A DNA stretch of 64,000 nt from Haladaptatus sp. QDMS2 (GTDB lineage Archaea > Halobacteriota > Halobacteria > Halobacteriales > Halococcaceae), in contig NZ_CP119791.1 of NCBI RefSeq assembly GCF_029338295.1, forward strand, positions 1,054,001 to 1,118,000, in the 5' to 3' direction. The notes beneath the pieces were generated by a model. That model did not search any database, had not been told where the DNA came from, and saw only the letters and a list, made by a program, of their open reading frames with translations. Every line of letters begins with the position of its first letter. Position 1 is the first letter of the stretch. A program made the position numbers and the translations under genes. Of this stretch, positions 7,250 to 42,154 are shown in pieces.

Positions 7250-7251
7250 AT

Positions 7252-7446: not shown

Positions 7447-7520
7447 GTCGATGGTGGATTGCAATTTGTTCGATAGCGAAACGCGGACGTGCTGGCTTTG
7501 CGTGCGAGACCTACGGGAAG

Positions 7521-7538
7521 GTGATGAAGTGTCATCAC
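7521..7538. promoter_or_regulatory. Inverted repeat, possible operator
   Basis: GTGATGA-AGTG-TCATCAC is a perfect 7-bp inverted repeat with a 4-base centre. It lies in the 206-base gap between the divergent small gene (start 7446) and the SnoaL-like gene (start 7653). It could bind a dimeric regulator or form a hairpin. No matching regulator gene is adjacent. Confidence 0.4.
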
Positions 7539-7652
7539 TCCTTCCTGCGACCCAGACTATCATAAACGTTCATGTTGAACGCAACTGTTGCCTGCGCGCT
7601 CGTATGCTACCTTATCTCGTGAGAACTCGTAGCTCTATTTGGGGTGAAACCC

Positions 7653-8120
7653 ATGGCAGCAACAAGTGGCCTCACCATTGACCAGAACAGGGAACGGGCA
7701 CGACAGTACCTGAAAGCAATTGAAGACCACACTGACGGCCGTATCGAGACGTTGACCGACCTCGTTGCGACGGACGTCGTGAACCACGCGCCGGTATCGA
7801 GTGACGAACTCAGCACGGGGGAAATGCGGGGCATCGACGCCTTCCGCGAACACGCAGAATCCGTCACGCACGCCTTCCCAGACGTGCGATTCGATATTCA
7901 CGACATGCTCGCAGAGGACGACCGCGTGATGGTGCGGTTCGACCTCGTTGGTACACACGACGGTCCCTTCATGGGGGTCGACGCAACGGGCAAGAAGATA
8001 ACCGTATCTGGCATCGTCGTCTACCGGTTCGAAGATGGAAAGATAGTCGAACGATGGAGCGAAGCCGACCTCGTCGGCCTGCTCCGGCAAGTCGGCGCGT
8101 TACCCGAATCGCTCGCGTAA
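7653..8120 (+). CDS. SnoaL-like / ester cyclase family protein
   Basis: A 155-residue protein with the NTF2-like alpha+beta barrel of the SnoaL polyketide-cyclase/ester-cyclase group. Typical features are the start NRERARQYLKAIEDH, the middle GIDAFREHAESVTHAFPDV, and the strands RVMVRFDLVGTHDGPFMG and GIVVYRFEDGKIVERWSE. Members often bind small hydrophobic molecules, and many have no known reaction; no polyketide genes are nearby, so only the fold-level call is safe. The ATG at 7653 is preferred over a GTG at 7644 because GGGGTGA sits just before it as a ribosome binding site. It is convergent with the aldehyde dehydrogenase gene, separated by a hairpin terminator. Confidence 0.82.
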   Translation: MAATSGLTIDQNRERARQYLKAIEDHTDGRIETLTDLVATDVVNHAPVSSDELSTGEMRGIDAFREHAESVTHAFPDVRFDIHDMLAEDDRVMVRFDLVGTHDGPFMGVDATGKKITVSGIVVYRFEDGKIVERWSEADLVGLLRQVGALPESLA

Positions 8121-8150
8121 TTTCGCGCCCTCATTTTTGACAGCGTAAAA

Positions 8151-8176
8151 CCGATGGCTCATCGGAAAGAAAAATA
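8151..8176. terminator. Hairpin with flanking A/T tracts between convergent genes
   Basis: CCGATG-GCT-CATCGG (8151-8165) is a perfect 6-bp stem. Read on the minus strand it is followed by TTTT, and A-rich sequence (AAAGAAAAATATAAAA) lies on the other side. It fits a shared bidirectional terminator for the SnoaL-like and aldehyde dehydrogenase genes. Confidence 0.55.
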
Positions 8177-8198
8177 TAAAACGTAGATTCGAGGGCGC

Positions 8199-9728
8199 TC
8201 AGTCGTCCTGGGTCTTGATGTCCGCAGAGAGGCCCTGAGCCATCTGGATGTCCTTCGAGTTGTTGAGCGTCCACGCGGTGCGCTCGGTGACGGCTTCGAT
8301 GATTTCGCGGGCCGAAGGATAGCCGTTGCCCGACTTCTTGACGCCGCCGAACGGGAGGTGGACCTCTGCGCCGATGCACGGGAGGTTCCCGTAGGCGAGG
8401 CCGACTTCTGCGTGGTCGCGGAAGTAGTTGATTTCGCGGTAGTCCTCGGAGATGATTGCGCCGGCGAGGCCGTACTCGGTGTCGTTCTGAATCTCGACGC
8501 CTTCCTCGATGTCACCGGAGTACTTGAGGAGCGCAACGTGCGGGCCAAACACTTCCTCGTGGGTGCAGCGAAGTGGCTCGTAGGGGTCTGCTTCGTAGAC
8601 GAACGGGCCGACCCAGTGACCGTCTTCGTGGCCGTCTGGAATCTCGCTTTCGTCGAGTTCGGTGCGGTCTACGAGCACGTTCACGTCCTCTTTGCGGGCG
8701 AGGTCCGCGTAGGAGAGGACCTTTTCCTTGTGGCCTTCCTCGATGAGCGGGCCCATGAAGGTGTTCTCGTCGAGTGGGTCACCGACGGAGACCTGCTCTG
8801 CGAGTTCGACGAATCGCTCTTTGAACTCGTCGTAGACTTCCTCGTGGACGACGAGACGCTCTGAGGAGACACAGCGCTGGCCGGTCGTCTTGAACGAGGA
8901 CATCAGCGCGGAGTGGACGGCGATGTCTAGGTCCGCCTTCTCCGTGACGACGATGTTGTTCTTGCCGCCCATCTCTGCGGCGACGAGTTTGCCCGGTTCG
9001 CCACCGACTTTGGAGGCGATTTCGTGGCCGACTTCGGCGGAGCCGGTGAACAGGACCGTGTCGATTTCGGGGTTGTCGACGATGGCCGCACCGGCGTCGC
9101 CGAAGCCCTGAATCATGTTGAACACGCCGTCTGGAATGCCCGCGTCCTCGAACATCTCCGCGATAATCTTCGCACACCACGGGGTCTGCTCTGCCGGCTT
9201 CCACACGACGGTGTTGCCTTCGACGAGCGCGACGGCCATGTGCCAGAACGGAATCGCGACCGGGAAGTTCCACGGCGTGATGCAGCCGATGACGCCGCGG
9301 GGCTTGCGGCGCATGTAGGCGTCCTTGCTCGGAATCTCCGAGGGGATGACGTCCCCTTTCGGGTGGCGGGCGTCGCCTGCGGCCCACTCCACCATGTGGT
9401 AGGCTTCGATGACGTCTGCGCGACCTTCGGAAATCTCCTTGCCGCACTCTTTGGTGACGATTTCGGCGAGTTCCTCGGTGCGTTCTCGCATCTCGTGGTA
9501 GATGTCCCAGAGGTACTCTGCGCGGTCGATGTGCGAGAGGTTGCGCCACTCCTCGAAGGAGTCTTCTGCGATGTCGATTGCCGATTCTACGTCCGCTTCG
9601 GTTCCGCGGCGGAACTCGCCGAGAACCTCTCCCGTTGCCGGGTTCTTGCTTTCGAAGGTGTCGTCACCTTCGCCGTCTGTCCACTCACCGTTGATGTAAT
9701 GCTGAAAGACGCTCGTCTCCTGAGCCAT
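8199..9728 (-). CDS. NAD(P)-dependent aldehyde dehydrogenase
   Basis: A 509-residue member of the aldehyde dehydrogenase superfamily, which oxidises aldehydes to acids in the cytoplasm. The landmark residues are all present: N154 in TPWNFP, the cofactor loop FTGSAEVG (about 227-234), the general base E252 in AAEMGGKNN, and the catalytic C286 in TGQRCVSSE. The length is normal for the family. The sequence style resembles haloarchaeal enzymes of sugar-acid or semialdehyde oxidation, but the substrate cannot be set from this. The ATG at 9728 lies just after a short palindrome (9735-9749) that may be a control site. The divergent neighbour is a Bat-type regulator, a possible but unproven controller. 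Confidence 0.9.
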   Translation of the reverse strand: MAQETSVFQHYINGEWTDGEGDDTFESKNPATGEVLGEFRRGTEADVESAIDIAEDSFEEWRNLSHIDRAEYLWDIYHEMRERTEELAEIVTKECGKEISEGRADVIEAYHMVEWAAGDARHPKGDVIPSEIPSKDAYMRRKPRGVIGCITPWNFPVAIPFWHMAVALVEGNTVVWKPAEQTPWCAKIIAEMFEDAGIPDGVFNMIQGFGDAGAAIVDNPEIDTVLFTGSAEVGHEIASKVGGEPGKLVAAEMGGKNNIVVTEKADLDIAVHSALMSSFKTTGQRCVSSERLVVHEEVYDEFKERFVELAEQVSVGDPLDENTFMGPLIEEGHKEKVLSYADLARKEDVNVLVDRTELDESEIPDGHEDGHWVGPFVYEADPYEPLRCTHEEVFGPHVALLKYSGDIEEGVEIQNDTEYGLAGAIISEDYREINYFRDHAEVGLAYGNLPCIGAEVHLPFGGVKKSGNGYPSAREIIEAVTERTAWTLNNSKDIQMAQGLSADIKTQDD

Positions 9729-26349: not shown

Positions 26350-28440
26350 TCAGAGGACGAGAAACATCCCGTAGGCGATGAGCAGCATGATGGTGGCGTG
26401 TTTCGCACCGGCCCTGACCGTCCCCTCGCTCATTTGGCCAGCGACGAGTCCCGAGAAGAACCCCTGTAACAGCGCAGCGTGGAAGAAAATCATCTCGTAC
26501 TGCAGTTTCTCTGCGTCGGTGATGCCGGCGGCCTGACCGGCCAGTCCCACCGAGTTGACGAGGTCGCCCGACGGGATGCTCGGGATGAACACGCTCACCA
26601 TCACGTAGACGATGGTGAGGAAGACGAGAAACGAGATGTACGTGATGATGAGGTAAACCATCATCTCCTGTTCGCGTTTTTCTTCTAACTGCTGAATCGA
26701 CCGCGCCTCGTCCGCGGCGATTCTGAGCACGGGCGCGATGTCACCGCTCGCGCGAATGGCGTTCGAGATGAGCGTCACCGCTCTGGTCACGCTCGGTGCG
26801 CGCACCCGGTATTCGAAGCGATGGAGGGCCGTCTCCACGTCCGCGCCGTAGTTGATGTCGTGCCAGATGCGCGTCATCTCTGTGTCAAGCGCACCAAGGT
26901 CGTTCTGGCGGATTTTTTCGATCCCACCGACGACCGAGATGCCCGCCTCGTTGAGGCTGGCGAGGCGTTCGAACAGTTCGGGGATGGCGTTCTCGATGGC
27001 GGCCCGCCGACGGGCGTGAACCTCCCAGACGATTGCAAACGTCGCGATTACGAACAATACGCCCTGTATCAACACGTCGTCGAGGCCGGCTACGGCCACC
27101 GTGCCGCCGAGCACTGCGGGCCAGATAATAATCATCACCCAGAGCGCTGCGAGCGGCATCGTCGCGTAGAGGAGGACGAACGGCCGCTCGAACACGGTCT
27201 GTACCGGACGTTCGAGGGTCCGGGCGACGGTCCGGAACCGTTCGTACAGTTCGAGTTGCGCGAGGAGTTCTCGGTCGCGCGGCGAGTGCGCGTAGCCACC
27301 GTCGGTCAGTGGCCGGGCCGCGTCGGGTGAGCGGGTCGTTCGAACGCCGGTGACGGCGAGCGGCTGGGTGGTCGAATCGTGGGAGATGCGTGGACCGCCC
27401 GTGGCGGTGGTAAACCGGTCGAGGTAGAGGATGAACGCTATCGTCGCCAGTGGGACGAGGACGTAGACGACCACCTGCAAAGCGAGCAGCGTGCCGCCAC
27501 TCACGAGACCGATGATGAGCAACACGGTAATTAGGAACAGCGGTCCGACGACCAGCACCGACACGTACCCCTCCGCGAACGCGGCGAGCAGTTCGAGGAA
27601 CGACGACTGTCGCGACTCCGCTTCCTGCTTTCGCCGTTCGTACTCTTCACGGAGGAAGTCGGGAACGTGCTGACCGCTCTGCAGGACGCTCGAAACGTTC
27701 TCCAGAAACGTCTTCAACTCCGTGCTCGGCGTCCGGCGAGACACCCGCTGAATCGCAGTGAGAATGTCCGCGCCAAGCAGGTCCATGTCGCGGGTCGCGA
27801 CGGCCAGCTCCTCCGCCGATTCGCCGTACACCGAACTGTTGTCTCTGAGCGCGCGCAGAATCTTCGGAAACGCCATCCCACCCCGAGAGAGGGCGTACAT
27901 GAACGCGACGGTCCGAGCGATGCTCTCGTCGATTCTGCGCTCGCGGCCGTCCGCGTGGGCGGCGGGAACACCCCAGCGAAGGCGGTAGGTGACGAATCCA
28001 CCGAGAAGCGCGGCGGTGGCGCTGAGGGCGAACAGGACGACGAACCGCCGAATCTCGGGAATCTGCACGCCGGGAATACGGCTGAGCATCCCCAGTGCAG
28101 GGACCTGTTCGACGATGAGGCCACTCGACACGGAGATGACGAAGAGCACGAAAACGGCGACGTAAATCCCGAGAATCGCAGACACGACGGCGATAGTGCC
28201 ACTGTAGAGCAGCGTCTTCGAAGCGAACACCCGGTAGGGGATGTCGATTTGCGCCCGCTGGAGGGTTCGGCGTCGTGCCAGCCGATTGCCGACGTTCTGG
28301 ACGTAGTTCCCGAAGGTAGCGAGCGCGAGCCGCGTGAACAAGCGGTCGAGCCAGTTACTGTAGGGCGTCGCCACGAGCATCGCGAGGAGGGCGACGCTGC
28401 CGACCAGCGGCGCGACGGAGAGCAGAGTCTTGAGCATCAT
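26350..28440 (-). CDS. PilC/TadC-like type IV pilus platform protein (T2SSF domains)
   Basis: A 696-residue multi-spanning membrane protein of the type II secretion F / archaeal pilus platform family, on which pilins are assembled. It has two T2SSF-like cytoplasmic domains (about residues 165-290 and 500-620), the first with RRIDESIARTVAFMYALSRG and the second with IENAIPELFERLASLNEAGI, each bounded by membrane helices. The last helices lie near residues 570-690. The length and double-domain layout match haloarchaeal PilC-type proteins. Translation starts at an ATG whose bases overlap the PilB-like stop (ATGA at 28440-28437), so the two are tightly coupled. Confidence 0.88.
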   Translation of the reverse strand: MMLKTLLSVAPLVGSVALLAMLVATPYSNWLDRLFTRLALATFGNYVQNVGNRLARRRTLQRAQIDIPYRVFASKTLLYSGTIAVVSAILGIYVAVFVLFVISVSSGLIVEQVPALGMLSRIPGVQIPEIRRFVVLFALSATAALLGGFVTYRLRWGVPAAHADGRERRIDESIARTVAFMYALSRGGMAFPKILRALRDNSSVYGESAEELAVATRDMDLLGADILTAIQRVSRRTPSTELKTFLENVSSVLQSGQHVPDFLREEYERRKQEAESRQSSFLELLAAFAEGYVSVLVVGPLFLITVLLIIGLVSGGTLLALQVVVYVLVPLATIAFILYLDRFTTATGGPRISHDSTTQPLAVTGVRTTRSPDAARPLTDGGYAHSPRDRELLAQLELYERFRTVARTLERPVQTVFERPFVLLYATMPLAALWVMIIIWPAVLGGTVAVAGLDDVLIQGVLFVIATFAIVWEVHARRRAAIENAIPELFERLASLNEAGISVVGGIEKIRQNDLGALDTEMTRIWHDINYGADVETALHRFEYRVRAPSVTRAVTLISNAIRASGDIAPVLRIAADEARSIQQLEEKREQEMMVYLIITYISFLVFLTIVYVMVSVFIPSIPSGDLVNSVGLAGQAAGITDAEKLQYEMIFFHAALLQGFFSGLVAGQMSEGTVRAGAKHATIMLLIAYGMFLVL

Positions 28441-30092
28441 TCTGCCGAGGGGGCGGGTGCCTTCTCGGCGTCGATTCTCGCCAGAACCGCTGCCTTGTCG
28501 GCGTAGTACTCGTTGACCTCCGCGGTGAACTGCCGGTAGTCGGACACCCCCTGTTCGCGCAGGTGTTCGAGGAAGCGCCGCCGATTCCTGAGCTCCGAGA
28601 GCAACTGCGCCTGTGACCACCCGCGCTCGTCGCGTATCTCGTCGAGCACAGTGCTCGTCCCCTCGGTGACGGTGTCGGTGCTCGGATTCCAGGTGTACGC
28701 CGTCGAGTAGTCGAGTTCGCCGGTTCGCTGGTTAATTCCCTCTATCTCTGCGATGGTCCGGTTACGTCTCGAGCGCTCGCCGTCGATTCTGACGAGCGAC
28801 TGGATACAGAGTATGTCGAGCGACTGGACCATCTGCCGGGGGACGTTGATGGGTTCGTTTTCGAGACGGTTGATGACCGTCTGGACGCTGTCTGCGTGCA
28901 TCGTCGAGTAGGTGGTGTGGCCGGTGTTCATCGCCTGAAACAGCGTCATCGCCTCCTCGCCGCGCACCTCGCCGACGATGATGTACTCGGGGCGGTGGCG
29001 CAACGCAGAGCGCAACAGGTCGAACATCGTGATGTCGGCTCCCGCGTCCAGTCGGTCGCGGGTGACCGAGGAGAGCCAGTTTTCGTGGTACAGCGCGAGT
29101 TCGTGAGTGTCCTCGATGGTGAGCACCTTCGCTCGCGGCGGGATGAACATCGAGACGGCGTTCATCGAGGTGGTCTTCCCGGAGGCCGTCCCGCCAGCGA
29201 AGATGAGCGATTTGCCGCTCTCGATACCGAGCCACAGATAGGCCATCTGGCGGAGCGTGAACGTCCCGTAGTTGATGAGGTCGATGGGCGTGAGCGGGTC
29301 TTCGGCGTAGCGCCGAATCGTGAACGCAGAACCGCGCGGCGTCACCTCCTGGCCAATGACGAGTTCGGCACGACTGCCGTCGGGGAGCGTGGTACCCACC
29401 ACCGGCGACCCGATAGAGATGTGCTGGCCCGAGCGCTGGGCGAGTTGGATAACGAAGTTGTCGAGTTCGTCGCGCTGGAAGCTGATGCTCGTCTCGATGT
29501 TGTCCTGTTGGTCGTGGTAAATGAACAGCGGGATGTCGTACCCGTCACACGAGATGTCCTCTACGTGGGGGTCGTGCATGACCGGGTCGAGCTTTCCGTA
29601 GCCCAGAAACGAGCGATAGAGGTAGTAAAAGAGGCGGTAGAACGTCGCCATCTCGACGGAGACGCCGTACTCCTCCAAGCGTTTTCGCAGTTCGTCTTTC
29701 AGCACGTCTTCGGGCGAGTGTTCGCCGGTCTTCCGGTACAGCAGCGGGTCACGGATGTCGTCGACGAGCGTTTCGAGCAGGCGCGCTTCGACTGACGAGA
29801 GGTCGGGTTCGACGACGTGATAGCGGTGGTCGTTCGCCGCCGGGTTGAACAGAATCGTGACGAACGCGAACGGAGCGTTCACCCAGTAGCGGTCGATTTC
29901 TTCCCAGCCATCCAGGCCGTCGTAGGTGACGAGCGGGCCATCCTCGTTCGGGTCGTAGTTTTCGAGTTCGAGCGACGACCCGGAAAGCATCTTCGAAGCG
30001 CGTGACAGCCAGTTTTGAAACTGGCTCAGGGCACTCGATTCGGGTTCGTAGGCGTCGTGTGTGTCCGTGTCTGTCGGTCGTTGTCCTGCCAT
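28437..30092 (-). CDS. PilB-like type II/IV secretion ATPase
   Basis: A 551-residue motor ATPase of the GspE/PilB/VirB11 family that drives pilus assembly. Walker A is GGTASGKTTSMN near residue 300, the Walker B region contains YIIVGEVRGEEA, and the His-box contains GHTTYSTMHADS. The N-terminal 150 residues form the usual archaeal lead domain (LVTYDGLDGWEEIDRYWVN). The ATG at 30092 is preferred over the GTG extension. It sits between a small membrane protein gene upstream and the PilC-like gene downstream, on the same strand. No pilin or prepilin peptidase gene is adjacent; the nearest pilin-signal protein is 8 kb away on the plus strand. Confidence 0.92.
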   Translation of the reverse strand: MAGQRPTDTDTHDAYEPESSALSQFQNWLSRASKMLSGSSLELENYDPNEDGPLVTYDGLDGWEEIDRYWVNAPFAFVTILFNPAANDHRYHVVEPDLSSVEARLLETLVDDIRDPLLYRKTGEHSPEDVLKDELRKRLEEYGVSVEMATFYRLFYYLYRSFLGYGKLDPVMHDPHVEDISCDGYDIPLFIYHDQQDNIETSISFQRDELDNFVIQLAQRSGQHISIGSPVVGTTLPDGSRAELVIGQEVTPRGSAFTIRRYAEDPLTPIDLINYGTFTLRQMAYLWLGIESGKSLIFAGGTASGKTTSMNAVSMFIPPRAKVLTIEDTHELALYHENWLSSVTRDRLDAGADITMFDLLRSALRHRPEYIIVGEVRGEEAMTLFQAMNTGHTTYSTMHADSVQTVINRLENEPINVPRQMVQSLDILCIQSLVRIDGERSRRNRTIAEIEGINQRTGELDYSTAYTWNPSTDTVTEGTSTVLDEIRDERGWSQAQLLSELRNRRRFLEHLREQGVSDYRQFTAEVNEYYADKAAVLARIDAEKAPAPSAE

Positions 30093-30173
30093 GAAATCCC
30101 CACTGACGCCCCGCACGGGCGGTCGGTTACTGTCATGACTGTGCGGCGGAAACTACATAAATCCGACCCAAAA

Positions 30174-30674
30174 TCAGGCCCGCTCGACCCGCAGCAGTGT
30201 CGCCCCGAAGACGAGGAAAAACAGCGCCCCGAGGGGGACGGCGATGCCGATGAACGACTGAAAGAGGAGTGCCGTCGCCACGGTGAGCACGAGGCCCGTA
30301 ACGAGCAACAGGCCGCCGATGGCGCGAACGGGGTCCACTGGTCCCGCTTCGACAGTGTCCTCAGCGAGGTAGAGCGCGATACTCACGACGAGCGCGAGGA
30401 AGAACACGAACGCACCGACGAGCCAGATTTGCTGGGCAAGGATGGTCTGTGCGTTCTCGTAAAAGGACTGCAGTTCGAGAACGGTAAACAGAATCTGTTC
30501 CTGTTCGCCAAAGGAGATGCCGAAGATGTACTGTACGTGGAAGAATAGGAACCGAATGACGACGACGGTCCCGATGTCGAGGGAGGCGACCGAGAACGAC
30601 CACGGCATCAGCGCCGACAGCCACGTCGCCAGCACCGCGAGTTCGTTCGCGTAGTCCTCATTTACCCAGGCCAT
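30174..30674 (-). CDS. Hypothetical membrane protein upstream of the pilus genes
   Basis: A 166-residue protein with at least three clear C-terminal membrane helices (about 84-104, 117-137 and 140-160; for example IWLVGAFVFFLALVVSIALY) and one or two weaker hydrophobic stretches near the N-terminus (ATWLSALMPWSF, VVVIRFLFFHVQYIFG). No family could be named. It lies 81 bases upstream of the PilB-like gene on the same strand and may be part of the same transcription unit, but the gap also leaves room for a separate promoter. The start MAWVNEDYANE is chosen because the upstream frame is rich in Pro and Arg. Divergent from the 30775 gene. Confidence 0.75.
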   Translation of the reverse strand: MAWVNEDYANELAVLATWLSALMPWSFSVASLDIGTVVVIRFLFFHVQYIFGISFGEQEQILFTVLELQSFYENAQTILAQQIWLVGAFVFFLALVVSIALYLAEDTVEAGPVDPVRAIGGLLLVTGLVLTVATALLFQSFIGIAVPLGALFFLVFGATLLRVERA

Positions 30675-30774
30675 TACACAAATCGGCACTGTCCATCGGG
30701 TAAAAACTACCGCAAGACGGGCGTCTGACGGAGGCGGTACGTACTTAGGGTGTGCGTCCATATAGCACACGAAG

Positions 30775-32699: not shown

Positions 32700-33815
32700 A
32701 TGCCTGTCGACCGACGACGATTCCTCAAAGCAACGGGTGCACTCGGGGCAGTGGGCCTCGCTGGGTGTACGACAAATCCGAACAACGACGCGGGTGACAA
32801 CAATAACAACAACACGGGCAACGGAGACGGCGACGGCGGCGAAGACCCCGTCAACGTTGGGATGGTCTACGCCACGGGCGGCCTCGGTGACAAGTCGTTC
32901 AACGACATGGCCCACCAGGGCGTCCAGCAGGCGGCAAAGGAATACAACGTCGAGTACCAGAACGCAGAGCCAGAAGAGGCCTCGCAGGTCGGGAGCCTCC
33001 AGAAGCGCTTCGCACAGGAAGGAACCTTCGACCTCATCACGGGCGTTGGCTTCGTCCAGAAAGACGGCATGGTCACGAACGCCCAGGAGTTCCCCGACCA
33101 GAACTGGATTCTCATCGACGAGACCGCTCAGACCGAGGACGGAAAACTCTTGGAGAACGTCGCAAACTACCGCTTCAAGGAACACCAGGGCTCGTTCCAG
33201 ATTGGCTACCTCTCTGCACTGCTCTCCACCCAGGAGTTCAGCGCCGGTGAGAGTTCGACGAAACCAGACCAGAAGTCCGTCGGCTTCGTCGGCGGGTTCG
33301 AGATTCCGCTCATCAAGAAGTTCCTCGCTGGCTTCCAGGCTGGCGTCGCTCACTACGACGACAGCATCGAAGTCCAGTCCGCCTACGCGGGTGCGTTCAA
33401 CGACCCTGCGACGGGGAAAGAGATCGCGCTCTCGATGTACGACAACGGTGCGGACATCGTCTACCACGCGGCCGGTGGCACGGGCCTCGGCGTCTTCCAG
33501 GCGGCCCGTCAGGTTGGTGGCTTCGCGATGGGCGTCGACGCAGACCAGTCGAAATCCAACGCGGAGTACAAGGACGTCATCCTCGCGAGCATGGTCAAGC
33601 ACGTCGACCTCGCCGTCTACGAGTCGGTCGAGGCCGTCGTCAACGGTAACTTCAAAGGCGGCGTCGAGAACCGCCTCGGGCTCAAGGAAGAAGGTGTCGA
33701 GGCCGTCTACGGGCAGGAACTCGGCAGCGCCATCCCAGAGGACGTAAAGAGCAAGCTCGAAGAGAGCAAACAGCAGATCATCGACGGTGAGATTACGGTT
33801 CCGTCAGAGCTGTAA
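32700..33815 (+). CDS. BMP-family ABC transporter substrate-binding lipoprotein (nucleoside type)
   Basis: A 371-residue extracellular binding protein of the basic membrane protein (BMP/PnrA/Med) family. Members capture nucleosides. The signal is of Tat-lipoprotein type: DRRRFLKATG then lipobox LAGC with C23. An Asn/Asp/Gly linker (about 26-50) follows. The mature domain shows family marks such as GMVYATGGLGDKSFNDMA and GFVQKDGMV, and the late motif YHAAGGTGLGVFQAA. It is the first gene of an operon with an ATPase and two permeases, followed further on by cytidine deaminase and uridine phosphorylase, which supports nucleoside uptake. Confidence 0.9.
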   Translation: MPVDRRRFLKATGALGAVGLAGCTTNPNNDAGDNNNNNTGNGDGDGGEDPVNVGMVYATGGLGDKSFNDMAHQGVQQAAKEYNVEYQNAEPEEASQVGSLQKRFAQEGTFDLITGVGFVQKDGMVTNAQEFPDQNWILIDETAQTEDGKLLENVANYRFKEHQGSFQIGYLSALLSTQEFSAGESSTKPDQKSVGFVGGFEIPLIKKFLAGFQAGVAHYDDSIEVQSAYAGAFNDPATGKEIALSMYDNGADIVYHAAGGTGLGVFQAARQVGGFAMGVDADQSKSNAEYKDVILASMVKHVDLAVYESVEAVVNGNFKGGVENRLGLKEEGVEAVYGQELGSAIPEDVKSKLEESKQQIIDGEITVPSEL

Positions 33816-33833
33816 TCGGAAACCGTACAATAC

Positions 33834-33862
33834 TTGCCCGAACCTTCCGAACCCTCGGGCAA
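33834..33862 (+). promoter_or_regulatory. Intercistronic stem-loop after the binding-protein gene
   Basis: TTGCCCGA (33834-33841) and TCGGGCAA (33855-33862) form a perfect 8-bp stem with a 13-base loop between the binding-protein and ATPase genes. Such hairpins often stabilise the upstream message or limit read-through, giving more binding protein than transporter. Confidence 0.5.
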
Positions 33863-33881
33863 AGCTGCGCAACCTATTTCA

Positions 33882-35429
33882 ATGAGTGAGACACCAGCAG
33901 TACGACTAGCCGGGATTACGAAGCGGTTTCCGGGCGTAGTTGCCAACGACAATGTCGACCTGACCGTCGAGCAGGGGAGCGTTCACGCGCTTCTCGGTGA
34001 GAACGGGGCCGGAAAGACGACCCTGATGAACGTTCTCTACGGGCTGTATCGACCGAATGAGGGGGCCGTCAGCATAAACGGCACGCCCCGCGAGTTCTCC
34101 TCCCCACGCGATGCCATCGACGCCGGCATCGGAATGATTCACCAGCACTTCATGCTGGTCGACCCGATGCCCGTCGCCGACAACGTCGTCCTCGGAAACG
34201 AGCCCAGAAAGTGGTTCGGGCTCTCGATGGACCGACAGCAGGCAGTCGCAGAGGTCACCGAACTCGCAGACAGATACGGCTTCGACGTAGACCCCACCGC
34301 GACGCTCGAGAACGTGAGCGTCGGAGAACAACAGCGCGTCGAGATTCTGAAGGCTCTCTACCGCGGCGCGGACATCCTCATTCTAGACGAACCGACGGCC
34401 GTCCTCACGCCACAGGAGGTAGAGGAACTGTTCACCGTGTTCGACGAACTGACCGCCCAGGGCAAGACGATTATCTTCATCTCGCACAAACTCGGCGAGG
34501 CAATGGAGGCCGCAGACGACATCACCGTCCTCCGCGACGGGAAGAACGTCGGCAGCGTGGACGCGAACGCGACCAGCCGCGAGGAACTCGCGGAACTGAT
34601 GGTCGGCCGTGAGGTCATGCTCGAAGTCGACAAGACTGCTGCCGACCCGGGTGAGCAGATTCTCGGCGTCGACGACGTGCACGTTCGCGACGACCGCGGC
34701 GTCCCGAAACTCTCCGCCCTCGACTTCGAGGTGCGGGCGGGCGAGGTGTTCGGCATCGCCGGCGTGGACGGCAACGGTCAGTCGGAACTCATCAACGCCG
34801 TCACCGGGCTCTCGTCGGTCGACGAAGGAACCATCGTCTATCAGGGTGCGGACATCACCGACATGCCACGGCGCGAGCGCATCGCGCAGGGCATGTCCTA
34901 CATCCCGGAGGACCGCCAGGAGAGCGGTGTCGTCATGGACTACGATCTCGTTCAGAACGCGGTCCTCGGCAACCAGCACACAGAACCGTTCTCGCGCGGC
35001 GGGCGAATCGACTGGTCGTACACGGCGCAACACGCAGGTGACATCATCGACAAGTACGACGTGCGACCGCCAGACAAGCGGGCGACCGCCGAGTCGCTCT
35101 CCGGTGGGAACCAGCAGAAGTTCATCGTCGGGCGCGAGTTCGAGCGCAACCCCGACTTCGTGGTCGCGGCCCACCCGACACGCGGCGTGGACGTCGGTTC
35201 CATCGAGTTCATCCACGACCGGCTCATCGACCTGCGAGACGACGGAACGGCGGTGTTGCTCGTCTCCTCGAAACTCGAAGAGGTCACGCAACTTTCTGAC
35301 CGACTCGCGGTGATGCACGACGGTGAATTCATGGCAATCGTAGACCCAGACGACGTGACCGAAGAGGACCTCGGCTTGCTCATGGCAGGGGAGTACCCCG
35401 CCGGATTCGACGGAGGTGACCAGCCGTGA
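33882..35429 (+). CDS. Nucleoside ABC transporter, double ATP-binding protein
   Basis: A 515-residue protein with two fused ATPase domains, as in ribose/nucleoside-type (RbsA/NupA) importers. The first domain carries Walker A GENGAGKTT (about 40-48), signature VSVGEQQRVEILKAL and Walker B DILILDEPTAVL. In the second, the Walker A place reads GVDGNGQSEL (Lys replaced), the signature is LSGGNQQKFIVGRE and the Walker B place AAHPTRGVDVG, the degenerate form normal for this group. The ATG at 33882 is preferred; the open frame upstream contains the stem-loop. It overlaps the permease gene at a GTGA. Confidence 0.9.
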   Translation: MSETPAVRLAGITKRFPGVVANDNVDLTVEQGSVHALLGENGAGKTTLMNVLYGLYRPNEGAVSINGTPREFSSPRDAIDAGIGMIHQHFMLVDPMPVADNVVLGNEPRKWFGLSMDRQQAVAEVTELADRYGFDVDPTATLENVSVGEQQRVEILKALYRGADILILDEPTAVLTPQEVEELFTVFDELTAQGKTIIFISHKLGEAMEAADDITVLRDGKNVGSVDANATSREELAELMVGREVMLEVDKTAADPGEQILGVDDVHVRDDRGVPKLSALDFEVRAGEVFGIAGVDGNGQSELINAVTGLSSVDEGTIVYQGADITDMPRRERIAQGMSYIPEDRQESGVVMDYDLVQNAVLGNQHTEPFSRGGRIDWSYTAQHAGDIIDKYDVRPPDKRATAESLSGGNQQKFIVGREFERNPDFVVAAHPTRGVDVGSIEFIHDRLIDLRDDGTAVLLVSSKLEEVTQLSDRLAVMHDGEFMAIVDPDDVTEEDLGLLMAGEYPAGFDGGDQP

Positions 35430-36613
35430 AACAGCAGTTCGAGGCCGCCGTCGCACGCATGACGACCGCCTCGAATCTCGAACGCATCGCCATCAGCATC
35501 GCCGCACTCGTCGCGTCGATTCTCGTCGGTGGCGTCGTCGTACTCGTCGCCGGGTTCGTCGCGCAGTGTTCTCAGCCGGTTCTGTTCTTCCCCGGCGTGG
35601 GCTATTCCTGTTACAACCCGGTCTCGGTGTACGTCGAACTCTTCCTCGGCCCGTTCTCTGGACCGGGCGTGTTCGGTGAAACGCTCCAGCAGACGACCAT
35701 CCTCCTGCTCACGGGGCTGTCCGTGGCCATCGCGTTCCGCGCTGGCCTGTTCAACATCGGGACGCAGGGACAGTTCGTGATGGGGTCGATGGCGACGGCC
35801 ATCGTCGTCCCACTGCTCGCGCCGGCTGTCCCAGCGAATGCCGTGGGTGCGCTCATCCTGATTCCGCTTGGTCTGCTCGCAGGCGCGCTCGTCGGCGGCC
35901 TGTACGGCGCGATTCCCGGCGCACTCAAGGCCTACGCAGAGGCAAACGAGGTCATCACGACCATCATGCTGAACTTCATCGCGACGTTCCTCGCCCTGCT
36001 CATCGTCTCGACGTGGTTCAAGGACCCGAACAGCACGAACAACACGCAGACGGCGAAGGTGCCGGACTTCGCGATGCTCGACTCCTCTGTGTTGCCGGGG
36101 GACTTCTCGTTCATCGCCCTCGCACTGGCGCTGGCGCTTGTCGCCACGATTAGCTGGCTGCTCGTGAAGACCGCGTTCGGCTACGACCTGCGAATAAGCG
36201 GCATCCAGGAGGGAGCGGCCGCCTACAGCGGTGTCAGCGCGAAGAAGATGACCGTGCTGTCGATGGCCCTCTCGGGGGCGCTCGGTGGCATCGCCGGAGC
36301 CGTCTACATTCTGATGGTGACCGGCCGCTGGCTGCCAACCGCGCCCGCGTTCGGCTTCGACGGCATCACCGTCTCCATCCTCGCAGGCAACAACCCCGTC
36401 GGGGCCATCTTCGCGGCGTTCCTCTTTGGCATCCTCAAGGTAGGTCGCATCGCAATCGACTTCAACCTCGACGTTCCCTCGCAGTTGGTGGGCGTCCTCC
36501 GGGGGCTCATCATCCTGTTCGTCGCCATGCCGGAGTTCTTCCGCATGTTCGGCACCCGCTTCAACGTCGGTTCTGACATGGCCGTCACGACCGACGGAGG
36601 TGAAGACACATGA
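35426..36613 (+). CDS. Nucleoside ABC transporter permease (first)
   Basis: A 395-residue permease of the BPD_transp_2 family (NupB/YufP-like). About ten hydrophobic helices are seen. ETLQQTTILLLTGLSVAIAF and the segment FRAGLFNIGTQGQFVMGS (about 106-123) are the conserved family core. KAYAEANEVITTIMLNFIAT is the region contacting the ATPase. The start is GTG, overlapping the ATPase stop, with GGAGGTG at 35413-35419. The N-terminal segment before the first helix is longer than in the second permease, with an added helix and loop, as usual for this subunit. Confidence 0.9.
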   Translation: MKQQFEAAVARMTTASNLERIAISIAALVASILVGGVVVLVAGFVAQCSQPVLFFPGVGYSCYNPVSVYVELFLGPFSGPGVFGETLQQTTILLLTGLSVAIAFRAGLFNIGTQGQFVMGSMATAIVVPLLAPAVPANAVGALILIPLGLLAGALVGGLYGAIPGALKAYAEANEVITTIMLNFIATFLALLIVSTWFKDPNSTNNTQTAKVPDFAMLDSSVLPGDFSFIALALALALVATISWLLVKTAFGYDLRISGIQEGAAAYSGVSAKKMTVLSMALSGALGGIAGAVYILMVTGRWLPTAPAFGFDGITVSILAGNNPVGAIFAAFLFGILKVGRIAIDFNLDVPSQLVGVLRGLIILFVAMPEFFRMFGTRFNVGSDMAVTTDGGEDT

Positions 36614-37683
36614 ACCGACTGAACCATCTCGACACTCGCAGCAAAGTCGGGCTCGGCGCACTGGCACTGTTCTTGCTTGCGGTCGCCGTGCTCGCGATTA
36701 CCGCCCCGGAGACCGCAGGCGACGTGTTCGGACTCATCGACGGCAATCTCGCTTCGGCCGCGCTCCGGACGGCGGTTCCAATCGCCTTCGCCGCTCTCGG
36801 TGGCCTGTTCGCTGAGAAGTCCGGCGTCATCAACATCGGACTGGAGGGCCTGCTCATCGTCTCGGCGTTCGCTGGGGCGGCGAGTATCGCCCTACTGACC
36901 GGCGACCCCGGATCCGCCTCCCAGAGCATGGTGTGGGTCGGTTTCCTCATCGGCGTGCTCGCGAGTGTCCTGCTCTCGCTGTTGTTCGCCGTGGTCACAA
37001 TCGACTTAGAAGCCGACCAGATTATCGCCGGCCTCGCCGTCTGGCTCATCGCCCTCGGACTCGGCCCGTTCGCCGCACAGGTGTTGTTCAGCCAGTTCGA
37101 CTCGCCGTCCGTCTCGACGCTGAACACGGTAGCGATTCCGGGGCTCTCGCAACTTCCGGTCGTCGGGCCGATTCTGTTCGACGCGAATCCGACGGTGTAC
37201 ATGCTGCTCGTCGCCGTGCCCGCTTCGTGGTACTTCCTGTATCACACCGCGTTCGGGCAGTGGATTCGCGCGAGCGGCGAGAACCCGAAGGCTCTCGACA
37301 CCGCCGGCATCGACGTGCGCCGAGTGCGCTACGGCAGTGTCCTGCTCTCGGGTGCGCTCACGGGTATCGGCGGGGCGGCGCTCTCGCTCGTTCTCGTCGG
37401 GAAGTTCACCGGTGGCGGCGCGACCATCGTCAACGGTCGCGGCTTCATCGCGATTACCGCCTACCTGTTCGGGAACTACAACCCGGTCGGCGCGTTCGGG
37501 GCATCGCTGCTGTTCGCGACGCTCGAAGCCCTGCAGTTCCGCCTGCAGATTCTCGGCATCGGGATTCCGAAGTCGCTCATCCAGATGATTCCGTTCGTCC
37601 TCGTCATCGTCGTGCTCGCGCTCGTCGGACGCACGCGCCTGCCAGCGGCGGCCGGCGAGCACTACGATTCCGGCGAAGACTGA
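36610..37683 (+). CDS. Nucleoside ABC transporter permease (second)
   Basis: A 357-residue partner permease of the same family (NupC/YufQ-like). The core motif is AALGGLFAEKSGVINIGLEG (about 58-77), and the contact loop FGQWIRASGENPKALDTAG lies near 217-235. The ATG overlaps the first permease stop (ATGA) and has GGAGGTGA at 36597-36604. It is the last importer gene; a 22-base gap with A-rich sequence separates it from the convergent SDR gene. In other haloarchaea the deaminase and phosphorylase genes would be expected near here; in this genome they follow after 3 kb. Confidence 0.9.
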   Translation: MNRLNHLDTRSKVGLGALALFLLAVAVLAITAPETAGDVFGLIDGNLASAALRTAVPIAFAALGGLFAEKSGVINIGLEGLLIVSAFAGAASIALLTGDPGSASQSMVWVGFLIGVLASVLLSLLFAVVTIDLEADQIIAGLAVWLIALGLGPFAAQVLFSQFDSPSVSTLNTVAIPGLSQLPVVGPILFDANPTVYMLLVAVPASWYFLYHTAFGQWIRASGENPKALDTAGIDVRRVRYGSVLLSGALTGIGGAALSLVLVGKFTGGGATIVNGRGFIAITAYLFGNYNPVGAFGASLLFATLEALQFRLQILGIGIPKSLIQMIPFVLVIVVLALVGRTRLPAAAGEHYDSGED

Positions 37684-37705: not shown

Positions 37706-38461
37706 TCAGATGGACATGAGCCCACCATCGACCGGGAGTGGGTGTGCCGTGATGAACGACGCGTCGTCGCTGCAGAGGTAGACGACGGCGCTCGCAATCT
37801 CTTCGGGTTCTGCCATCCTTCCGAGCGGTTGCATGGCGACGAATTGTTCGATCTGCTCCGGGGTTTCTTCACCCGCACGCTGGACCATGGGAGTGTCCAC
37901 GACGCCGGGACAGACTGCGTTCACCCGAATTCCCTGTTTCGCGTACTCGACGGCGGCGACCCGGGTGAGGCCGATGACGCCGTGTTTGCTCGCGACGTAC
38001 GGTGCGCCGCCCGCGGCCATGAGTCCGGCGACGGACGATGTGTTCACGATGCTCCCACCGCCGCGGTCTACCATCACCGGGATTTCGTGTTTCATACAGC
38101 GCCAGACCCCGCCCAGGTTCACGTCGATGACGCGACTCCAATCGTCGTCCGCAGTGTCGGCGAGCGGAGCCATCTCTCCCTCGATGCCGGCGTTGTTGTG
38201 CGCGAAGTCGAGTCCGCCGTAGGTGTCGAGCGCCGTCTCGACCATGGTTTTCACGTCCTCGTCGCTGGTCACGTCTACGCGGACGAACGTGGCGTCGCCG
38301 CCCGCATCGGTGATGCGTTCGATCGTCTCACGACCCCCGTCTTCGACAACGTCCGCGACTATGACTTTGGCCCCTTCGGCCGCAAAGCGTTCTGCGGTCG
38401 CCCGACCGATTCCCGAACTCGCGCCGGTGACTATTGCTACCTTCCCCTCGATTCCGTTCAT
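37706..38461 (-). CDS. Short-chain dehydrogenase/reductase (SDR)
   Basis: A 251-residue classical SDR. The NAD(P)-binding loop is TGASSGIG (residues 12-19), followed by HNNAG (88-92) and the catalytic set S142/S143, Y155 and K159 in APYVASKHG. The glucose-1-dehydrogenase/3-oxoacyl reductase style C-terminus is [12 protein letters not shown] and later [18 protein letters not shown]37 after strand 2 (VIVADVV) suggests a preference for NAD over NADP. The substrate is open. It breaks the direction of the nucleoside gene cluster, sitting on the opposite strand between the importer and the pilin-signal gene. Confidence 0.88.
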
Positions 38462-38814
38462 TTCGTGGCTACCTCCACGTTAACAATGGACATGTATGCC
38501 TATGAGTATTCGCAGGGATTCGATTCCGCAAATCGGGCCTCCGTCTGACGTTCGAGAAGTTTCGATAACGGCAACATCTGACTGAAAATTTACTATTTCA
38601 TGCCTTATCGAGAGACTACTGGGGCACTCTCTAGAGAATATTACTTCGGTGGATCGAATGCACAGAATAGGGCATATGTCGCTATTCGAGGTGTCTCAGT
38701 CGATTGGTTTTCGTTCGACTTTGTGGCTCGACTCCCGCAATCACCAGCCAATTAACCGTACGGTAGGTTTATATTATCAGTCAGCGTTTGGGACAGTCGG
38801 GAAAGGGGGAACAT
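38462..38814. other. 353-base AT-rich intergenic region
   Basis: No protein gene is supported. Base composition is visibly more AT-rich than the flanking genes. The region must hold the SDR promoter (minus) and the promoter of the pilin-signal gene (plus). It includes a perfect 10-base palindrome TCTCTAGAGA near 38624 and another, ACCGTACGGT, at 38755-38764 beside the TATA box. Confidence 0.5.
38755..38777 (+). promoter_or_regulatory. TATA box with adjoining palindrome before the pilin-signal gene
   Basis: TTTATATTAT (38768-38777) is a good TATA box, with the palindrome ACCGTACGGT (38755-38764) immediately upstream at the BRE or activator position. The start codon is 38 bases further on, so this message has a short leader containing AGGGGG (38804-38809) as ribosome binding site. 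Confidence 0.5.
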
Positions 38815-40656
38815 ATGGTTCGCATTAACGTCCTTGGGGGAGGATTGAGCCTCGCGGCTATCGCGAGTAGAATTACGAAGTACGTACCCACGAGTGTGCG
38901 TATCGATTTTGACGACAGAGCGATATCGCCGATTATCGGTATCGTGCTCGTGTTTGGGATGACCATCGCCGGGTCTGCAGCGGTCCTGTACGTGGGGTCG
39001 CCTGCGTTAGAAAATATGCAGGGCGAAGCCGACGTCAGCAAGGTAGAGATTGGGATGGTTCAGATTGCGAGTCGCGTCGAAACCGTCGGCATGAGTGACG
39101 AACGCATGAGCGTTGCGCTCGCGCAAAGCAAGGGTCAGTACTACGTCGATGAAACGGCGGGTCACATCACGATTCGCCACCTCGACTACGATGGAGAAGG
39201 GGGAGACGCAGACATCTATACGTCCGATCTTGGGGCCATCATTTACGTCACTGACGAAACAGAGATTGCCTATCAGGGCGGCGGTGTCTGGCGGTTCGAC
39301 AAGAGCGGAAGCTCAATGATGATCTCTGCTCCTGACATTGGCTACCAGTACCAGACGCTTAAATCCGACTCCGGTTCTGAGGAAGACGAGTATACACTCA
39401 TCGTTCCAGTGACGAAAATCGAGGGTACTGCAGCTGTTTCGGGTGCAACGACGGCAGCGGTGACGAAAACAACGCGCTCGCAGGCAATCTATCCAAATAA
39501 GATGGCAGTCTACCCGAACGGTCAGGAGTTCCGAAATCCAGCATTCAACGGCACGCTCGAAATCGAAATCCAGAGTGAGTACTACGAGGCGTGGGGCCGT
39601 TACCTCTCTGCAGAACTCGGTCAATCTGCTGAGTACAACCACGACACGAAAACTGTCCGCGTCTCACTCACACCGTACGACCGTACCGCAGTGGCAGTAG
39701 GCGGAAGCGACCCACGCATCAATGTGATCACGGCCGCGCTGTACTCCGACACGATGTCACAAACAACGCACCTCAACTCGCAATCAACGATTGATAGTTA
39801 CGATTCGCGGGTCGGTGACTACGACTCGTCGAATATGACGAGCGGGGCAGACGTCGTTATCGGTGGACCGTTGAAATTAAACAATCCTGCAGGTGTGTAT
39901 GGAAACGTCACTGCGGCTGTTGTGGAGAATAACAATCCTGGTGACATTACCGGTGCCATTGACACTGAGTTCACCTCCGGACTGCCGACGCTCGAACCAA
40001 TCGATGCGATGATTGTGGGGCACATCACTCGCATTCAAGAGGACAATGATAATGACAATGCTAGCAGTATTACGGTCTATGCCAACGATATAGAACTTGA
40101 TTGCACGAACGACTGTGAACTCTCTGCAGGGAGTTACTACGTCAATCAGACCGTGAAAGTGAAAAAGACGATGACGCTCGACACGACGAAGGGGGACATC
40201 GAACTCGCAATCGATGACGGCATGAAATTCGAGGCAGACAAAGGAACGATACAGATCATCGGTGACGGAAAAGTGTTCATCTACATGGCCGGCGGCGATA
40301 TCGGCATCAAACAAAGCACCGTCGAAATACCGAACGACAATGCAATCCAGTTCTGGATGTTCAACCTCGATTCAGCTGCTGTGACCTTCGAAGGAGGTTC
40401 AGAATTTACGGGCATCGTCTATGCTCCTGGGGCGACCATCATCATCAAGTCTGACACGCACGTCTACGGTGCAGTGGTGGGTTATCTTGCGGACCTCCAG
40501 TCAAACGCCGGTATCCACTTTGACCGGGCACTCCTTGGTGGAACTGCCTACAAGGCACCGACCTACGAATGGGATTACGTCAAACCGAACACGACGCTCC
40601 CGCCGGTAAAATTCCTGCTTGGCACGGAACGCACCGTCACGGTCGAACTCGAATAA
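38815..40656 (+). CDS. Large surface protein with archaeal pilin-type N-terminus (DUF7289-like)
   Basis: A 613-residue protein with an archaeal class III pilin-type signal near the N-terminus: DDRAISPIIGIVLVFGM (residues 33-49), a charged stretch, SPIIG, then a hydrophobic helix to about residue 61. The rest is a large exterior region rich in Thr, Asp, Ser and beta-type strands. Near the C-terminus a segment (IYMAGGDIGIKQSTVEIPN, then GIVYAPGATIII and YGAVVGYLADLQ) resembles the polymer-like surface domain that accompanies such proteins; I recall the families DUF7289 and DUF7305. Codon use is more AT-rich than in neighbours. The 35-residue leader is unusually long; a GTG at 38896 would give a 9-residue leader, but the ribosome site favours 38815. 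Confidence 0.72.
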   Translation: MVRINVLGGGLSLAAIASRITKYVPTSVRIDFDDRAISPIIGIVLVFGMTIAGSAAVLYVGSPALENMQGEADVSKVEIGMVQIASRVETVGMSDERMSVALAQSKGQYYVDETAGHITIRHLDYDGEGGDADIYTSDLGAIIYVTDETEIAYQGGGVWRFDKSGSSMMISAPDIGYQYQTLKSDSGSEEDEYTLIVPVTKIEGTAAVSGATTAAVTKTTRSQAIYPNKMAVYPNGQEFRNPAFNGTLEIEIQSEYYEAWGRYLSAELGQSAEYNHDTKTVRVSLTPYDRTAVAVGGSDPRINVITAALYSDTMSQTTHLNSQSTIDSYDSRVGDYDSSNMTSGADVVIGGPLKLNNPAGVYGNVTAAVVENNNPGDITGAIDTEFTSGLPTLEPIDAMIVGHITRIQEDNDNDNASSITVYANDIELDCTNDCELSAGSYYVNQTVKVKKTMTLDTTKGDIELAIDDGMKFEADKGTIQIIGDGKVFIYMAGGDIGIKQSTVEIPNDNAIQFWMFNLDSAAVTFEGGSEFTGIVYAPGATIIIKSDTHVYGAVVGYLADLQSNAGIHFDRALLGGTAYKAPTYEWDYVKPNTTLPPVKFLLGTERTVTVELE

Positions 40657-40846
40657 GCGACCACGCGCACCAGTTTCACCAAACTTCACGAGGTCGCCAC
40701 AGGAACCAATCCAGTGGCGACGCTCGACATTCGCACGAGACGTCTCGGGAGTCAATCAGCTCTACGAGACGGCCATAAAATCCCTTTCGGGAACGACGCT
40801 CCGGGAGCGAAACCTCCACGGGGCGGCCATTGATTTCTCTCCGGCA

Positions 40847-40875
40847 CGCCGCCGGGTGGGTTCACCCGGTCGGCG
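40847..40875. repeat. Strong GC hairpin between the pilin-signal gene and cytidine deaminase gene
   Basis: The stem CGCCGCCGGGTG pairs with CACCCGG and CGGCG across a GGTT loop, giving 12 pairs with one bulged T (40870). There is no T tract after it. It could be a terminator for the upstream gene or a DNA-level element. Confidence 0.5.
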
Positions 40876-40881
40876 GCCACT

Positions 40882-40898
40882 GGTGCGCTCAGCGCACC
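40882..40898. repeat. Second perfect hairpin upstream of cytidine deaminase gene
   Basis: GGTGCGC-TCA-GCGCACC is a perfect 7-bp inverted repeat lying 25 bases before the TATA box of the deaminase gene. As an operator it would sit where an activator or repressor could affect that promoter. Confidence 0.45.
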
Positions 40899-40922
40899 GA
40901 TTTGCGACTCCATTACAGAGGC

Positions 40923-40952: not shown

Positions 40953-41339
40953 ATGAACGCCCTCATCGAAGCGGCCCGCGATATTCAGGCGGCCGCGCAC
41001 GTGCCGTACTCCGACTACCGCGTGGGTGCGGCTCTCGAAACCGCGGACGGGATCGTGTTCACCGGCTGTAATCTCGAAAATGCGAACTACTCGAACTCCC
41101 TGCACGCAGAGGAGGTCGCCATTGCCGAGGCCGTGAAGAACGGCCACCGCGAGTTCGCTCGCATCGCAGTCAGTTCCGGGCGACGCGACGGCGTCACGCC
41201 GTGTGGCATGTGCCGCCAGACGCTCTCTGAGTTCTGTGACAAGGACCTCGTCGTGCTCTGTGACGAGGGCGACAGTGTCTCCGAGTATACGCTCGGCGAA
41301 CTGCTTCCGAACACCATCACTGAAGGGCATCTCAAATAA
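40953..41339 (+). CDS. cdd: Cytidine deaminase
   Basis: A 128-residue zinc enzyme that converts cytidine to uridine. The active site is H51-A-E53 (LHAEE) and P-C84-G-M-C87 (TPCGMC): one His, two Cys and the catalytic Glu. Most short tetrameric cytidine deaminases use three Cys ligands (C-A-E), while the His version is typical of the long dimeric type; this short enzyme therefore has an unusual ligand set. The substrate-binding segment PYSDYRVGAALE and NLENANYSNS are intact. The stop overlaps the start of the uridine phosphorylase gene (TAATG), so the pair performs cytidine to uridine to uracil plus ribose-1-phosphate. Confidence 0.92.
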   Translation: MNALIEAARDIQAAAHVPYSDYRVGAALETADGIVFTGCNLENANYSNSLHAEEVAIAEAVKNGHREFARIAVSSGRRDGVTPCGMCRQTLSEFCDKDLVVLCDEGDSVSEYTLGELLPNTITEGHLK

Positions 41340-42154
41340 TGGACGCAGAAGACCCCAACGACGACGTCCAATACCACATCGGCGTCGGTTCCGACGACGT
41401 GGCGAACGCCGTGCTCCTCCCCGGCGACCCGGACCGACTGGAGAAAATCACGACGTTCTGGGACGACGCGGAGATTCGCGGCGCACACCGCGAGTACCGC
41501 ACCGCGACGGGCACCTACGACGGCGCACCGATTAGCGTGACCTCCACGGGCATCGGCGGCCCCTCTGCCGCCATCGCCGTCGAGGAACTCGCCCGCATCG
41601 GCGTGGACACCTTCATTCGCGTCGGTTCCTGTGGCGCAATCCAGCCCGAGATGGACGTCGGCGACCTCGTGATTACCACGGGCGGCGTCCGACAGGAAGG
41701 CACGAGCAAGGAGTACGTCCGCGAGGACTACCCCGCCGTCGCAGACCAGCAGGTCGTTATGGCGCTGATTGCCGCCGCAGAACGCCTCGGCTATGACTAC
41801 CACACCGGCATCACGATGTCCGCGGACAGTTTCTACGCCGGACAGGGTCGGCCCGGGTTCGAGGGCTTCGAGGCTCGCGGTGCCGAGGAGATGATTCAGG
41901 AACTGAAGGACGCGAACGTCAAGAACATCGAGATGGAGGCCGCCGCCATCATGACCATCGCGAACATCTACGGCCTGCGTTCGGGGGCGGTCTGTACGGT
42001 GTATGCCAACCGGACGACCGGCGAGTTCCGGACCGAGGGTGAGGGACGCGCCGCGGAGACTGCTTCACTCGCCGTGAAACTGCTCGCGAAGATGGACGAA
42101 GCCGCAAACGAGGCCGGTGCCGCCCAGTGGCACCCGGGTCTCGCGCTCGACTGA
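41339..42154 (+). CDS. udp: Uridine phosphorylase-type nucleoside phosphorylase
   Basis: A 271-residue PNP/UDP family phosphorylase that splits nucleosides with phosphate into base and ribose-1-phosphate. Family marks are NAVLLPGDPDRLEKI at the start, the phosphate-binding region GSCGAIQPEMDVGDLV, and the ribose-binding NIEMEAAAIMTIA. The linked deaminase gene favours uridine as substrate. Ribose-1-phosphate can then feed the archaeal pentose bisphosphate route known in haloarchaea, although those genes are not in view. It is convergent with the secreted propeller gene, 9 bases away. Confidence 0.9.
   Translation: MDAEDPNDDVQYHIGVGSDDVANAVLLPGDPDRLEKITTFWDDAEIRGAHREYRTATGTYDGAPISVTSTGIGGPSAAIAVEELARIGVDTFIRVGSCGAIQPEMDVGDLVITTGGVRQEGTSKEYVREDYPAVADQQVVMALIAAAERLGYDYHTGITMSADSFYAGQGRPGFEGFEARGAEEMIQELKDANVKNIEMEAAAIMTIANIYGLRSGAVCTVYANRTTGEFRTEGEGRAAETASLAVKLLAKMDEAANEAGAAQWHPGLALD

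Follow-up and report, generated by a model that had tools for sequence, protein, structure and literature searches.

The closest described counterpart of the protein discussed here is ComZ of Thermus thermophilus (PDB 6QVI), a DNA-binding protein that has been proposed to be a tip pilin (PMC6561018); in pilins of this type, a solenoid is set into the pilin fold between its two final strands. PilB and PilC of Streptococcus sanguinis also consist of a pilin moiety that bears an adhesive module, and they have been modelled at the tip of the filament (PMC9934059). In archaea, Makarova et al. (2016, PMC4858521) described the arCOG02911 minor pilins as all-beta proteins of 250-550 amino acids that are prone to duplication and are common to PilB3- and PilB4-type systems, and the PilB3-C3 machinery of Haloferax acts on pilins encoded at other loci (PMC6491452). 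These sources, like the one on Haloferax volcanii below, are cited from excerpts; no mention of DUF7289 or DUF7305, the two families on which the present analysis turns, was found in the literature searched.

A protein comparable to these is encoded in the window (G000:C1:1054001-1118000, the whole stretch of 64,000 nucleotides from Haladaptatus sp. QDMS2 that was analysed) by a forward-strand open reading frame that begins with the ATG at 38815 and whose stop codon ends at 40656. The product is an acidic protein of 613 residues with a class III pilin-type N-terminus, DDR/AISPIIGIVLVFGMTIAG (DDR/AISPIIG), behind a long leader, the R being residue 35; a charged residue does precede a 20-residue hydrophobic stretch in this class III leader. 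DUF7289 (78.5 bits) and DUF7305 (126 bits) both match far above their cut-off of 27 in a Pfam scan; for TIGR02537, the model of archaellin and pilin N-termini, residues 33-59 score 17.3 bits, slightly short of the required 20. An open reading frame of this length with two curated domains above cut-off is a real gene, beyond chance, and the 613-residue protein with a class III pilin-type start that the initial annotation had described is borne out. The interval then given, 38462-40656, holds for its larger part only: the gene occupies it from 38815, and 38462-38814 is intergenic (353 bp, 47% GC), with 38462 being the first base past the SDR gene. The ice-binding-like adhesive domain PF20597 matches barely above its cut-off and, among the 47 family members scanned, it does so in the window protein alone; its adhesive label is not a trait of the whole family. 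TIGR04215 (choice-of-anchor A) scored 16.5 bits, below its cut-off of 29, the Pfam scan, run to E 1, listed no match to the ice-binding protein family DUF3494, and ice-binding PDB profiles matched only at E 0.11-0.24. The features are collected in the table.

Table. Features of the locus, in positions of the window.
Feature	Position	Strand	Basis
PilC-like and PilB3-like genes (as ORFs; pilC start provisional)	26350..30116	-	PilB: PilB3_N and PilB3_C; PilC named from ORF
Bmp-type importer genes	32700..37683	+	binding protein at 32700 scanned; ATPase and permeases named from ORFs
SDR oxidoreductase, left flank; in both congeners	37706..38461	-	scan, synteny
AT-rich divergent spacer; TATA-like 38769-38776, Shine-Dalgarno-like GGGGG 38805-38809	38462..38814		by eye, inference
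Stretch without homology to the congeners' 113-114 bp (insertion)	38464..40919		comparison with two congeneric genomes
613-residue modular pilin-like gene (DUF7289 and DUF7305)	38815..40656	+	ORF, Pfam
DUF7289 match, residues 35-293: class III cleavage region, hydrophobic helix, beta-rich head	38917..39693	+	Pfam, model
Predicted long N-terminal helix, residues 40-93	38932..39093	+	AlphaFold2 model
Predicted ice-binding-protein-like beta-solenoid, residues 301-578	39715..40548	+	model, structure alignment
DUF7305 match, residues 389-573	39979..40533	+	Pfam
Confident C-terminal strand, residues 600-612; proposed last strand of pilin head	40612..40650	+	model; family-level support only
Cytidine deaminase, right flank	40953..41339	+	TIGR01354 above cut-off
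Uridine-phosphorylase-like protein	41339..42154	+	TIGR01718 269 bits, below cut-off 280

The split of the importer genes from the deaminase/phosphorylase pair by an opposite-strand SDR gene and the pilin-like gene, as first described, is seen in the window, and 8.7 kb separates the pilin-like gene from pilB3. A DUF7549 protein is encoded beside pilB3 (30174-30770), as it is in both congeners. Two strong tandem hairpins lie between the pilin-like and deaminase genes (40843-40899; z -3.57, none of 200 shuffles being equally stable); the stretch is single-copy in the genome. A search of Rfam gave no match at gathering scores.

The gene (53.1% GC) also stands apart in base composition, as had been claimed. 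Its GC3 is 0.62, compared with a mean of 0.775 (sd 0.063; z -2.5) for 44 open reading frames picked mechanically across the window, the gene itself among them and just one lying lower, and with 0.785 in 16 other mechanically picked frames at 28-50 kb. The shortfall of 0.164 from the local mean is larger than any seen among 29 relatives when each is set against its own locus (mean 0.001, sd 0.069, minimum -0.158); these relatives, both linked and stand-alone, were taken from the loci in hand. Low GC3 as a trait of the family is ruled out by the relatives' mean gap of about nil (n=29), with a small margin over the most AT-rich of them.

The placement of the gene was compared by way of the neighbouring permease, a search with which gave matches in 26 of 41 genomes. 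At the syntenic place, the gene was found in none of the 20 permease loci compared, each from another genome, with the deaminase and phosphorylase genes being visible on the fetched stretch in ten of them. In G001 and G002, the sole further genomes of the genus searched (one genome per species), the order pilB, importer, SDR, deaminase, phosphorylase, and arginase-like gene (the last named from its open reading frame) is conserved without it: homology ends at 38462/38463 and picks up at 40920, and the interval between these two points is 114 and 113 bp, respectively, versus about 2.46 kb in the window. The insertion relative to the two congeners is real, and a gain is the simplest account of the gene's placement, with losses possible; the short spacers and a GC3 gap beyond that of 29 relatives thus favour the gain of a surface-type gene that the initial annotation had suspected. 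The SDR gene lies outside the same insertion, since it is present in both congeners. Beside the importer, it occurs in the window and in 2 of the 20 loci (those of the genus) and is absent there from the other 18, an SDR-like match (33%) being found elsewhere in locus L094. Either it came earlier than the pilin-like gene or it was lost in other groups, and the importer and deaminase genes were probably already apart before the pilin gene's arrival.

The wider distribution is patchy. A single DUF7305 copy is present in this genome. Within the same taxonomic family, the domain was found in 2 of 18 genomes (at differing places), compared with 17 of 23 outside it, where 16 of the 17 score above the cut-off of the Pfam family. 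Neither a genome scan with the single sequence nor the comparison of 392 genomes of the order (at most three candidates per genome scored, cut-off 1e-30) gave a close orthologue; the best match by E-value among the 392 (in G358) has 35% identity over residues 26-584, and identity rises to 42-47% in shorter matches that cover a part of the head. In a tree of 44 rows, the window gene clusters with two stand-alone genes, L133 and L134 (100/96), on long branches; its row was flagged for unusual composition, and the stand-alone genes are not united in a single clade. A mobile element as the carrier was rejected: the only two tRNAs of the window lie at 17.8 and 25.0 kb, and a flanking duplication or long inverted repeat is absent, the short matches found being, by our own estimate, of about chance size. 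One viral scan returned no viral relative, and a plasmid search gave eight records, all haloarchaeal and all below 60% identity. On another contig of this genome, a 10-kb stretch is 95% identical, over 79% of its length, to a plasmid of Haladaptatus sp. YSMS36, a likely near relative.

In 14 of the 20 closest relatives' loci annotated, the gene is convergent to a cluster of pilB4, pilC4, pilins, and a short DUF7289 gene, and in the other six, it stands alone. Another set of 77 loci contained 64 of at least 18 kb, of which 59 have either the PilB4-type core (39 loci) or two or more pilins of that cluster; the five without a pilus cluster are L169, L170, L200, L219, and L225, the first two of which coincide with two of the six stand-alone loci above. 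These loci come from the best 80 of one scan and are not a random sample. By module, linkage to a PilB4 cluster held for 31 of 36 loci with DUF7305 and for all 21 with DUF7308, the remaining seven being unclassified. A PilB3-type core near a relative was seen in 1 of the 64 long loci, with PilB4 there too; this locus (L168), from Halarchaeum nitratireducens, has both cores near a DUF7289-DUF7305 gene. The functional link to the PilB/PilC operon 8 kb away, as put forward initially, is not supported: pilB3 is present in both congeners without the gene (the stretches compared reached pilB3, with pilC lying beyond), 59 of the 64 long loci are of the PilB4 type, and a conserved genetic linkage of the family to pilB3 was found neither in the two congeners nor in the 64 long loci.

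The genome's own PilB4 cluster (G000:C1:1598001-1617000, L153) encodes DUF7287, DUF7288, DUF7261, DUF7266, and DUF7289 proteins, with GC3 values of 0.68-0.74 in the pilin genes, and it closes with a DUF7289-DUF7308 protein; as it ends in the DUF7308 version, the solenoid version in the window is a separate, stand-alone head. The genome has one gene of the prepilin-peptidase family (PF01478). Proteins with the same stem and the DUF7308 module were also seen elsewhere (L187, L192, L201, L208, and others). A further DUF7289 gene in this genome (G000:C1:468973-469692; L004, L067 about 6970-8220) is interrupted by TGA, and an intact counterpart of 482 residues with the same neighbours, one of which we take to resemble hemA, is found in G001 and G002. 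Two open reading frames of very low GC3 (0.38-0.42) adjoin the PilB4 cluster of G001 (L070 710-3010) and are perhaps another gained piece.

An AlphaFold2 model of the window protein, built from 47 sequences (mean pLDDT 85), predicts a long N-terminal helix, a beta head, a beta-solenoid, and a final strand. In a Foldseek search of the PDB, ComZ came first (6qvi_B, E 2.9e-5, over 575 alignment columns including gaps), followed by ice-binding proteins; the whole chains of ComZ and the model do not superpose (TM-score 0.20-0.23, rmsd 18.5 A). In VIA-align, ice-binding proteins score Z 16.3-18.2, and the alignment of ComZ with model residues 303-581 scores Z 15.4. The solenoid dominates such fold searches, and PDB profiles match the head weakly (Natrinema PilA2, E 0.29). 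Among 44 proteins compared by eye, the module is followed by the end of the chain, which in most cases is a strand of the form YLHVSxNxVxV, with DUF7305 and DUF7308 alike, and short DUF7289 proteins have a similar strand directly behind the head. A splice test for this last strand covered 32 of the 44 proteins, the other 12 being dropped for want of a cut motif or match: 12 of the 32 beat all 40 controls and 18 had at most two controls equally high, which is support at the level of the family; the window protein itself was equalled by 36 of 40. Homology and the model support a pilin-type protein, well for the solenoid and indirectly for the head. The model of the DUF7308 module (pLDDT 80) is jelly-roll-like, with weak matches: the best in Foldseek are neurexin fragments (probability 0.54), and the best in VIA are galectins, sialidases, and GH32 enzymes (Z at most 6.6), which may reflect a common arrangement only; ComZ and ice-binding proteins are absent among the matches listed for it.

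We consider it fairly probable that this stand-alone gene was gained and that it encodes a modular tip pilin, assembled in trans and probably acting as an adhesin. According to this proposal, the gene would have entered the spacer that separates the SDR gene from the cytidine deaminase gene, and it probably has a transcript to itself, started from the AT-rich promoter region ahead of it. Prepilin peptidase would cut ahead of residue 36, after which the hydrophobic helix would pack into a type IV filament, and the beta head would cap this filament and hold the rigid, ice-binding-protein-like solenoid as a binding surface. By analogy with ComZ, which binds DNA, and with the lectin-bearing pilin of S. 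sanguinis, which binds glycans, the solenoid should be a binding head, with adhesin being its most likely role. For the assembly in trans, the PilB4-type machine of the genome is a likelier candidate than the nearby PilB3. The domains, the placement, the absence from two congeners, and the base composition are established here, and the fold is predicted; we infer the tip position, ligand binding, transcription, and assembly in trans of the protein. Counting against this proposal, the gene is alone, with no partner pilin gene adjacent (its neighbours being SDR and cytidine deaminase), and the two rows closest to it in the tree are stand-alone as well, as are the 6 of the 20 closest loci that are unlinked to a pilus cluster; the low TM-score with ComZ, the splice-test result of the window protein, and the lack of PF20597 in the other family members weigh in the same direction.

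The choice of machine is the point at which another reading comes closest to the one above. The protein might serve the nearby PilB3/PilC3 (PilA-type) pilus as a tip or minor pilin: its hydrophobic domain, AISPIIG, resembles the AVSPVIG of three PilA-type pilins in this genome, and it does not start with GQ or AQ as in the PilB4-linked relatives compared; moreover, a minor pilin family is common to PilB3 and PilB4 systems (PMC4858521), and PilB3-C3 serve pilins encoded elsewhere (PMC6491452). However, both congeners keep pilB3 without having the gene, and the one long locus with a PilB3-type core near a relative has PilB4 too; about 22 helix residues match PilA and PilB4-type relatives about equally (by eye) and do not decide between PilB3 and PilB4. 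We regard a PilB3 pilin as rather unlikely. A surface protein with a pilin-type leader that is held in the membrane or associated with the S-layer, and that never enters a filament, would be in keeping with the protein's size and lack of pilin partners and with the unlinked relatives (5 of the 64 long loci and 6 of the 20 closest loci, with two places common to both); the long helix of the AlphaFold2 model and the 59 of 64 long loci in which the family lies near pilus clusters make this improbable.

Whatever the machine, the gain itself could be questioned. The gene could be a long-standing one of the genus that the two congeners have lost, with its low GC3 a result of drift in a surface gene: the genus sample is three genomes, and the pilin genes of the PilB4 cluster are also somewhat low in GC3. 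Against this, the gap of the gene is beyond that of any of 29 relatives, if narrowly (-0.164 versus -0.158), and other groups are also without the gene at the syntenic place (none of 20 loci), so that we hold an old gene to be unlikely. The nucleoside-use setting evokes yet another explanation, a ComZ-like tip pilin that captures DNA and supplies the surrounding locus: ComZ, the top Foldseek match, binds DNA (PMC6561018), Haloferax volcanii grows with external DNA as a phosphorus source (PMC3929857), and the gene sits between importer and deaminase/phosphorylase genes. Yet this placement is a single case. A scan of 10 neighbours of the stand-alone genes L133, L134, and L069 assigned 8 to a family and showed no nucleoside gene among them; likeness of fold to ComZ shows no function, and the protein is acidic. 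Attractive as it is, we regard such a DNA-capturing role as very improbable, and its broader version, in which a haloarchaeal pilus scavenges DNA as food by means of a ComZ-like tip pilin recruited to the nucleoside locus, as one of several interchangeable heads (solenoid or jelly-roll) that a common archaeal pilin carries at the same fixed site, strikes us as more improbable still.

If the gained tip pilin is the right reading, the DUF7289 stem carries an exchangeable head, which is a solenoid (DUF7305) or perhaps jelly-roll-like (DUF7308), and Pfam families of unknown function gain a testable interpretation as archaeal modular tip pilins. It would also identify what ends the PilB4-type pili of haloarchaea, for which no experimental function was met in the excerpts of the literature consulted, and it would mean that genes for such heads can stand by themselves and be acquired in that form.

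Compared with known systems, the window protein shares with ComZ a pilin-like part and an ice-binding-type beta-solenoid, both predicted here, but has an archaeal class III leader, no adjacent partner pilin, and a whole-chain TM of about 0.2. The arCOG02911 minor pilins resemble the DUF7289 proteins by description only and, as described in the excerpt cited (PMC4858521), have an Ig-like fold and no inserted solenoid, unlike the window protein. PilB and PilC of S. sanguinis differ in being bacterial, in the C-terminal position of the module, and in a module type unlike that of the window protein; the lectin module of PilC is ConA-like, and the DUF7308 variant is weakly jelly-roll-like. With ice-binding proteins of the DUF3494 type (FfIBP and LeIBP), the solenoid fold is shared (Z 16-18 over 187-207 aligned residues) at 10-18% identity, with the window solenoid being part of a pilin-like chain with no match to the sequence family. 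The DUF7289-DUF7308 paralogue of the same genome (L153:11480-13081) has another inserted module and sits within the PilB4 cluster, and it shares with the window protein the type of DUF7289 head and a similar C-terminal strand.
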